The position numbers and the translations under genes are program-made. Below are positions 47,901 through 50,900 of a stretch of DNA of 64,000 nt, in pieces (position 1 is the first letter of the stretch; each line of letters begins with the position of its first letter). Where the stretch lies: NCBI RefSeq assembly GCF_042242105.1, contig NC_092028.1:16086768-16150767 (forward strand). The letters run 5' to 3'. This DNA comes from Pempheris klunzingeri. Its lineage: Eukaryota; Chordata; Actinopteri; Acropomatiformes; Pempheridae. The notes under the pieces were generated by a model. The model was not told the DNA's origin, ran no database searches, and worked only from the letters and a program-made list of their open reading frames with translations.

Positions 47901-50900
47901 TCCGTCGGAAATCTGGCCCCCCTCCCCCACCTCCACCTCGCAGTAATCCACCACCTAAACGCCATTCCTTACATAAAGTGCTGCCCACAAGAGACGACCT
48001 ACAGGTCCATGCTACCATACAAGAGCTAAAAGCCTACCAAGAGCAAAAAGTCTACCAGGAAAGACAAGCTTATGAGGAGCAACAAGCATATAAGGAGAGG
48101 CAGGCATATGAGGAGCAGAAAGCCTATGAAGAACAAAAACTGTTCCAAGAGCAGCAGGCTTACCAGGAACAACAGGCCTATCAGGAGAAAATTTTGAAAG
48201 AGAGACAGGCTTACGAAGAGCAGAAAGCATACGAGGAGCAAAAAGCCTTTGAAGAGCAACAACTGTACCAAGAGCAACAAGCCTACCAAGAAAGACAAGC
48301 ATATGAACAGCGCCAAGCCTACCAAGAACAAAAAGCGTACGAACAGCGTCAAGCCTACAAGGAGCAAAAGGCATTTGAGGAGCTTCAAGCCTACCAGGAG
48401 CAAAAAGCTTATGAAGAGCGTAAAGCATATGAGGAGCAAAAAGCTTATGAGGAGCATCAGGCCTACGAGGAGCAACAAGCATATCAAGAGCAGCAGATGC
48501 AACAGATCTACCAGACCCACCACTCAATGCCCACCCAGCCTACACAGCAGAAAGCACACTCACCACTGCCTCTCCAAACACTCCACCAGTCCTTACCCCC
48601 ACTCCCCTCTCCAGACTCCAGCCACCACCCCGCTAACCATCCTCTGTACATGATGCGCCAAGCGCAGCAGCAACAGGCCCACCAGGGTCATCACCACCGA
48701 CGTCAGTCCCGTTCAGCCCCATCTCCGCACCAGCCGTCACCCCAACCAACATCCCACTCCAGCCAACAAGGTCAATATGCTGAAGGCATCTACCAAAGCC
48801 ATCAGGGCATGAGACCCCAGCCCCACCATTCTTCTGCGGAGATGCTCCACCAGATGCACCAAGCTCCAGCCCATCATTCCTCTGCCGAGGTGCTCCATCA
48901 GTTGCAACAATCCCAGGCCCACCATTCATCTGCGGAGATGCTCCAGCAGATGCAACAAGCCCATGGCCACTACTCGTCATCAGAAATGCTCCACCAAGTG
49001 CACAAAACTAAGGCCCACCATTCTTCGACAGAGGTTCTGCAACAAGTTCACCAGATGCAGCAAATGCAGCCCCACCACTCCTCAACTGAACTTCTCCATC
49101 AAGCTCAACAGATGCATCGGGGTCAAGCACACCATTCATCCACTGAGCTGCTCCATCAAATGCACAAAACCCAACCCCACCATTCCTCCACAGAGCTGCT
49201 CCATCAAGCCCATCAGATGCACCAACCGAAGCCCCATCACTCCTCCACAGAGCTTCTGCATCAAACCCAGCAAGACCCTGCCTCCCTCCCAGTGCAGCTA
49301 AACCGGGACAGCCACTCCCACCAGAGCCGGAGAAGTCTTAAAGGCCATCATCAGACCCAAGTGTCACCGCAAGGGAGACACCAAGAGCAGCAGATCCACC
49401 AAACCCATCACCCCCAGCCCACCAAACCGTCTCCTCAGAGACCCCACTCTATCCAGCAGACTCACCACCACTCCAGCACACCTCAGATCCACCACATCCA
49501 CCATATCACCCCGCAGCCCCCTCCTCAGGACTACCAACACCAGATTCATGTCATCCACCCTCCGCAGCAGCCCCACAGGCCTCAGCCCCTTCTCTCGACA
49601 TTTCAGCCCCTCCAACCACACCAGCCTACCCTTTCCACTTTTCAGCCTCTGCCCCAGCACCACCAATCTCAGCACCAGGTCCAGTCCTCCTCCCAAGCCA
49701 CCCGCCCGCAGTCCCAGCCCTCACACCACCTGCTACAGTCGCCACACCAGCTCCAAACTCAGTCCCACCATAAGCAATCCCATGGCCAGAGTCAGCCCAT
49801 GTCCCTCCCCCACTCTCTATCTGATCCCACCGAGCACCTGGAGCCCCCTCCGCCTCCACCCCTGCCCCCACCCTGCTCCCCTCCACCCTTGCCCAGGCCT
49901 CCGTTCTCCAGGATGGACTCCAACCACATGAGCGTAAAGAGGCTGCGGTGGGAGCAGGTGGAAAACTCAGAGGGGACTATCTGGGGACAGGTGAGCTATG
50001 TGGGGTTCAGACATGGGGAGATAAAGAATCTTAGTTTAGATTCAAGATACTGTAATTCACTTAGCACCTTTTTTGCATATCTTTGGTAGCTGGGAGCAAA
50101 TTCTGACTATGAAAAACTGCACGACATGGTGAAGTATCTGGATCTGGAGCTGCACTTTGGGACACAGAAGAGCTCCAGTGAGTACAACTGGTTACATGGA
50201 AGGAAGCACAGCTAAATATCATGAGATTATATGTATGGAATTCTGGATTAATAAATAAGCCCCATTCATGTCCACTGTATATAGCAAATATTTAAATCAG
50301 AGGCTGATTTGGCTGAACATTGAATGACACACTCATCGTTACTTCTCAGCACGTTAATATCCTCGTTCTTGGATCCTTAGAGTGTGATTATTAGTCACTG
50401 AATCTTTAGTGTTTCACCTCCTAATTCTTCACCTGATCTAAAAAACACGATTCCCAGTTTTACTTTTCCTAGCATTCCTCTCATGTTGGACTATATTTGT
50501 TTCCCCTAAATTTATTCTACAGTTGTCATCTTTGTAATTTGCTCTTTAGAAAGAGTGTAAAAATAAGTTTACACAAGATTTATTCCTATTCATTTCCCTC
50601 TCTGTGTATCTCCATAACGGATTTTACTAACTACTAACTTTTAGTGCCTACTCCAGAGCCATCCCTTCAGCCAGAAACCTTCAAGAAAAAAGATGTGATT
50701 GAAATTCTATCCCATAAGAAGGCCTACAATGCCTGTAAGTATACAATATTGTTCTATTATGTATTTCCGTATATGTATTTTTATTTTTATCCTAAAAATA
50801 CTTAGATAGCACAATGACGCTTCTTCTTTTTTCTTTACTGGCTCATTTACGGTTCTGAATTAGGAATTTATAATCCCTGTTCATGTTGGTTTTAACCTCT

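Follow-up and report, generated by a model that had tools for sequence, protein, structure and literature searches.

The window, a stretch of 64,000 nucleotides from Pempheris klunzingeri (C17:16086768-16150767 in the genome of 646 Mb and 439 contigs that was searched), carried the exons of a gene coding for PDZ and FH2 domains. Two frames in its upstream part matched Pfam PDZ (E 1.6e-7 and 1.4e-11), the second marking the PDZ-containing stretch of the scaffold half at 31952-32284 (+). The frames at 32330-32533 and about 44100-44900 may code for harmonin homology domains, which they resembled by eye; one of these harmonin-like frames was scanned with Pfam and gave no match. The downstream FH2 exons used in the searches (50899-52488 (+), not the whole FH2 domain) matched Pfam FH2 when joined (E 4.1e-44), and all 12 solved sequences matched by this query were formins, with DAAM1 as the best. 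Three other genes were recognized in the window: an open reading frame at 5960-6712 (-) which we take, by eye, to be fumarylacetoacetate-hydrolase-like, a presumed zinc-finger gene at 22616-25164 (+), also by eye, and a sodium:solute symporter gene at about 57400-63340 (+), one frame of which matched Pfam SSF. A PDZ domain and an FH2 domain in one protein have been described as the GRID2IP/delphilin type (PMC5047451), and two harmonin homology domains have been described for delphilin (PMC8048344). The host gene was named a delphilin-type (GRID2IP-type) PDZ-formin from its domain order (PDZ, FH1-like prolines, FH2), which supported the initial annotation of the gene as delphilin.

A single open exon of 809 codons (2427 bp) was located at 47564-49990 (+), without stops, preceded by CAG and followed by the donor GTGAGC at 49991. 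It held an acidic start, a polyQ run coded by CAG/CAA at 47819-47858, the repeat array studied here (array 1), a second array (array 2), a His/Gln-rich region and an FH1-like proline run at 49844-49903 (+). Array 1 was translated in the frame of the open reading frame 47546-50089. With PDZ exons upstream and FH2 exons downstream, it was placed between the scaffold half and the FH1-FH2 half, as initially annotated. Array 2, at 48824-49264 (+), comprised nine copies of H-[HY]-S-S-x-E-x-L-[HQ]-Q, 16 or 19 residues apart, and its silent sites were varied like those of array 1.

Array 1 extended over 48029-48493 (+) and consisted of 26 units with the consensus [QK]-A-Y-[EQ]-E-[QR], namely 25 hexads and one pentad, in 155 residues and 465 bp (25 x 18 bp + 15 bp). 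The translation confirmed the coordinates, the 26 units, the single five-residue unit and the register that had been given for it. The pentad, ILKER at 48191-48205 (+), contained no aromatic residue. The DNA sequences of all 25 hexads were distinct, and 17 distinct peptides were encoded. Column 1 of the hexads was Q or K in 25/25 (Q 14, K 11), column 2 was mostly Ala (A 22, L 2, V 1), column 3 was aromatic throughout (Y 22, F 3), column 4 was E 13, Q 10 and K 2, column 5 was nearly always Glu (E 23, Q 2), and column 6 was Q 16, R 6, K 1, L 1 and H 1. Neither Pro nor Gly occurred among the 155 residues, Gln was the commonest residue (27%), E, K and R together made up 38%, and the net charge was -15. 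Tyr or Phe accounted for 25 of the 155 residues, compared to 15 of 654 elsewhere in the exon. In the best single six-residue phase 16 aromatics were found over the whole array, while 5000 within-array shuffles reached 11 at most; with the best phase taken for each part, there were 9 in the first 54 residues and 16 in the remaining 101. Tandem Repeats Finder reported an 18-bp period with 26.4 copies and 65% matches, as well as periods of 36 bp and 105 bp. Two minus-strand frames (175 and 165 residues, within 48012-48539 (-)) were also open over array 1, as may be expected from an 18-bp period, and were not taken as genes.

The age of the repeat was evaluated from its silent sites. The initial annotation had proposed dN/dS between units as a check, and the pooled pN between hexads was 0.18 against a pS of 1.05, which was saturated and beyond correction. 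Two-fold codons make such pN and pS values difficult to interpret, and the identity of silent codons was therefore examined in its own right, between units that agree in residue at a given column; the expected values came from random draws on the codon usage elsewhere in the exon. The codons differed between units in 71% of Ala pairs (69% expected), 52% of Tyr pairs (42%), 46% of Gln pairs (47%), 40% of Glu pairs (42%) and 87% of Arg pairs (15 pairs; 81%), and the pairs for Phe and Leu were few (3 and 1). Lys codons were less diverse than expected, differing in 18% of pairs against 44%, and this was the clearest result against fully randomized silent sites. The codons preferred were AAA for Lys (11 of 14 hexad Lys codons) and CAA for Gln (27 of 42 in the hexads; CAG made up 70 of 112 in the rest of the exon). 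No significant excess of silent identity was found at lags of 1-15 units in 3000 synonymous permutations within columns, where the lowest p was 0.073 at lag 2, uncorrected for 15 tests, and the 36-bp and 105-bp periods left no significant trace at silent sites. Thus, apart from Lys, codon differences between units were close to random draws while Ala, Tyr/Phe and Glu were kept, in agreement with what the initial annotation had noticed.

Neutral evolution was then simulated 400 times for each setting, as a star from one consensus-type hexad. At four-fold divergences of 0.64 and 0.70, no more than 14 and 11 aromatics, respectively, survived in the unselected copies, and on average about 8 units contained stops; at lower divergence the maximum was 20 (0.39) and 15 (0.54). 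The real array, with an Ala divergence of 0.71, had 25 aromatics and no stops. In addition, three minisatellites of the same genome that weakly matched the array showed 83-90% matches between copies compared to 65% in array 1. Fresh duplication or gene conversion would have left silent sites alike, and those of the array were near random, so the array is old and its peptide has been maintained by selection, as had been proposed in place of a recent microsatellite. A recent microsatellite or a recent duplication was ruled out, as 25 of 25 hexad DNAs differed and none of the 15 lags was significant. Codons may instead have been selected to be mixed because this prevents slippage, a reading that likewise presumes a needed peptide. 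In this way, the state of silent sites offered a means to tell a low-complexity repeat from a tolerated expansion.

A second delphilin-type gene was revealed by the genome search. Besides the window, the FH2 query matched only C20 (63-82% identity), the scaffold query matched C20 at 46-68% identity (68% for the stretch at 31952-32284), and the PDZ query gave one weak match on C23 (39% identity, E 5.8e-5). The C20 exons were collinear with the delphilin exons of the window. The counterpart of the array exon in the C20 copy had 254 codons and a separate FH1 exon of 51 codons, 305 altogether, compared to 809 in the window. Both copies shared parts of the acidic/serine start, polyproline, the motif HKVLPTRDD (47972-47998 (+) in the window, the final residues common to both before array 1), the FH1 prolines, for which the run at 49844-49903 was largely common, and the FH2 start. 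Past HKVLPTRDD, a different Ser/Gln/Pro-rich stretch followed in the C20 copy. In the exon alignment the flanks were present in that copy, and array 1 and array 2 were both absent, as was the polyQ run. Hence the initial description of an array in delphilin stood for the gene of the window and did not extend to the second delphilin-type gene of the same genome. Array 1 may have been either gained in the window's copy or kept there alone. In the C20 copy an intron seemed to lie directly upstream of the FH1 prolines (L017 2520-3361) where the window copy read through 49800-49900, and an intron gain or loss seems to have occurred there between the two copies.

The neighbours of both copies were compared using 1646 window frames of at least 25 residues against C20:14785000-14874999. 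The matches were ordered along delphilin, except for a PDZ-type cross-match and three overlapping frames at 54419-54628, which matched one place within the C20 gene. The other genes of the window had no match in C20:14785000-14874999, and the relatives of the downstream symporter gene were located on other contigs. A whole-genome duplication as the origin of the two copies was not shown by these neighbours, and the C20 copy is therefore called a paralogue.

The structure of array 1 was predicted by AlphaFold2 from the single sequence, with no alignment, in a model of 213 residues around the array. One continuous helix of 178 residues (residues 13-190 of the model, 47990-48523 (+)) was predicted, with a mean pLDDT of 86.4 for the 213-residue model, a pTM of only 0.41 and pLDDT of at least 90 in 151 of 213 residues. 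This supported, as a prediction, the long single helix that had been suggested for the array. When run without an alignment, AlphaFold2 is prone to predicting too much helix in sequence that is charged and repetitive. Array 2, treated in the same way as a control, gave short helices only with a mean pLDDT of 54.2, which indicated that the method does not assign a confident long helix to every repeat. The mean helix-propensity cost was 0.34 for array 1, 0.51 for array 2 and 0.38 for a GCN4 zipper. As for solved relatives, none backed the helix, because both the search of the PDB by sequence (phmmer with array 1) and that by fold (Foldseek) returned 0 matches; Pfam gave no match with array 1 alone.

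Since an alpha-helix turns by 600 degrees over six residues, each aromatic is offset from the one before by 240 degrees, and the aromatics fall on three lines 120 degrees apart. The initial annotation had expected Tyr at every sixth residue to form a regular stripe, and this was not borne out: the resultant of Y/F/L/V/I/M over array 1 was 0.07 at 100 degrees per residue, 0.20 at most for 90-110 degrees and 0.40 at most in ten 36-residue windows. It reached 0.51 only at 120 degrees, an angle that is not alpha-helical. A GCN4 zipper, scored on L/V/I/M/F, gave 0.78. With the aromatics spread over three faces and not aligned on one, a standard coiled coil was unlikely, and the helical wheel ruled out a conventional one.

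Pairs of residues four apart were strongly ordered. Among the 24 aromatics having a residue at +4, 23 were followed there by Gln (13) or Lys (10), compared to 9.0 in shuffles. Lys or Arg was followed by Glu at +4 in 16 cases (11 Lys, 5 Arg) against 5.1 in shuffles, and the reverse order occurred once; E to K(+3) was counted 6 times and E to R(+3) not at all. For Gln-based helices, the side chain of Gln(i+4) is described to bond to the backbone of residue i, with Tyr and Phe as good acceptors, and such bonds can be combined with salt bridges (PMC9674830); a good acceptor at i with Gln at i+4 was found at 13 of the 24 aromatics of array 1. K to E(+4) is thought to be the most stabilizing Lys-Glu pair and E to R(+3) is rated the most stabilizing among Arg pairs (PMC5347031). 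The predicted helix would be steadied in two ways, on the one hand between the Tyr of one unit and the residue at +4, by a side-chain to backbone hydrogen bond where this is Gln and an aromatic-cation contact where it is Lys, and on the other hand by a salt bridge from Lys or Arg to Glu at +4.

The closest known systems were the single alpha-helix (SAH) domains of proteins such as myosins, caldesmon and drebrin. Array 1 resembles them in its long helix, as predicted, the lack of Pro and Gly, ordered +4 ion pairs and the position between two functional halves, and array 1 has no hydrophobic seam for a coiled coil (resultant 0.07). For natural single helices a high content of E, K and R is described (PMC5347031); array 1 differs in having only 38% of these residues, Gln as the commonest residue, a net charge of -15 and a strict hexad with an aromatic in each. 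Drebrin, a link between postsynaptic complexes and actin, is described as having a monomeric single helix that, like array 1, contains aromatics (PMC12203971). In Gln-based helices (polyQ and designed peptides), as in array 1, Gln stands four positions after a hydrophobic or aromatic residue (PMC9674830); array 1 differs from them as a natural array of 155 residues in which Lys alternates with Gln as the partner. The gene of the window resembled delphilin/GRID2IP formins in having PDZ, FH1-like prolines and FH2 in order, and it differed from its C20 copy in carrying array 1 and array 2. Among the titles and abstract openings listed for open-licence papers, none mentioned a repeat array in delphilin.

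Given these results, we regard it as fairly probable that the 155-residue repeat of the window's delphilin, whether gained or alone kept, folds as a long single helix acting as a stiff spacer. The model and the pairing counts point to this fold, and from the scattered aromatics we infer a single-stranded state. Against it speak the small share of E, K and R, the net charge, the absence of E to R(+3) pairs, the low pTM of a model made without an alignment and the empty searches for solved relatives. From the anatomy of the gene we infer the spacer itself, which would separate the scaffold half (PDZ and harmonin-like domains) from the actin-building FH1-FH2 half. An alpha-helix rises by 0.15 nm per residue, so the spacer would be about 23 nm long for array 1 and 27 nm for the whole predicted helix. 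Mouse delphilin is described at parallel-fibre synapses as a partner of GluR delta2, and long-term depression is facilitated when it is lost (PMC2386150); for the FH1FH2 piece hDelFF, little processivity is reported (PMC10797183). If the fish gene behaves similarly, the FH1-FH2 half would be held 23-27 nm from the scaffold half, presumably at the synapse.

Other functions were weighed against this spacer. Array 1 might act as a multivalent sticker, in which the tyrosines and the Lys/Arg residues close to them, along with the polyQ run and the His/Gln-rich region of the exon, would drive clustering or condensation, the helix being secondary. The 25 evenly spaced aromatics over three helix faces and the surrounding exon, rich in Q/P/H/S, fit this reading; we nevertheless judge it unlikely, as sticker models need no strict six-residue register, no conserved Ala2 or Glu5 and no +4 pairs, and the helix model was confident. 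Tyrosine phosphorylation was another candidate, with the Y-x-E-x units as a ladder that would dock kinases or SH2 proteins and charge the stalk on signalling. Among the 22 Tyr, 20 were in Y-[EQK]-E and 14 in Y-x-x-Q, but 3 of the 25 aromatics were Phe, which cannot be phosphorylated, and the acidic context would serve helix pairing equally, which left the ladder quite improbable as the main function.

The long predicted helix could also pair formin chains as a helical oligomerizer, that is, a non-heptad coiled coil or bundle, and formin FH2 domains are known to dimerize. The resultants over array 1, from 0.07 at 100 degrees up to 0.40 in single windows, are far from the 0.78 of the GCN4 zipper, and pairing of this kind is thought as improbable as the ladder. 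At the other extreme, array 1 would be a tolerated low-complexity expansion of little function in a disordered linker, like the remainder of the exon perhaps, which agrees with an exon of 809 codons against 305 in the C20 copy and with the polyQ and array 2 beside it. Such an expansion appeared very improbable, since neutral copies at the divergence of the array kept no more than 14 of 25 aromatics with about 8 stop-containing units, and 25 and 0 were observed.

The spacer reading can be carried further, in a form that we offer tentatively and hold to be rather doubtful: a natural 23-nm helix of new composition, with Tyr-Gln/Lys and Lys/Arg-Glu +4 bonds, would belong to one fish delphilin and not to the other; in the copy with the array the actin nucleator would be kept at a distance from the receptor scaffold, in the copy without it nearby, and Tyr phosphorylation may switch the helix. 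If the helix is real, it would be a natural type of single helix in which Gln-backbone bonds and aromatic-cation contacts are combined with salt bridges. The delphilins with and without the 23-nm spacer would then provide a paired test in one animal, which would ask what the distance from scaffold to actin nucleator does at the synapse.

Splice signals around the array were scored with a rough scheme. The exon's own acceptor scored -1.1, and 15 acceptor-like sites scoring above 3 were found in 48400-49900. Eight of these shared the frame of the exon start, among them the strongest (49646, score 6.7), which lies downstream of array 1, and splicing from the upstream donor to 49646 would skip both array 1 and array 2. 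By the same rough scoring, there were no donor-like sites above 3 in 47564-48100. On these scores, an isoform skipping array 1 is possible.

Finally, array 1 was compared with its own genome and with a viral collection. Eight genome matches including itself were obtained, with 150 of 386 candidates scored; the other seven were only 14-34% identical and translated as short repeats, and the three of them run in Tandem Repeats Finder were the minisatellites mentioned above. In the viral collection, the degenerate array pattern matched one contig with a short PAYQQQQAYQQQQ stretch, which was taken as chance. Repeat DNA with a translation similar to a KVYQEY/KVCKEY hexad was observed at G000:C7:1506967-1508688 (L002, L008); it looks non-coding, with 4 stops in L002.
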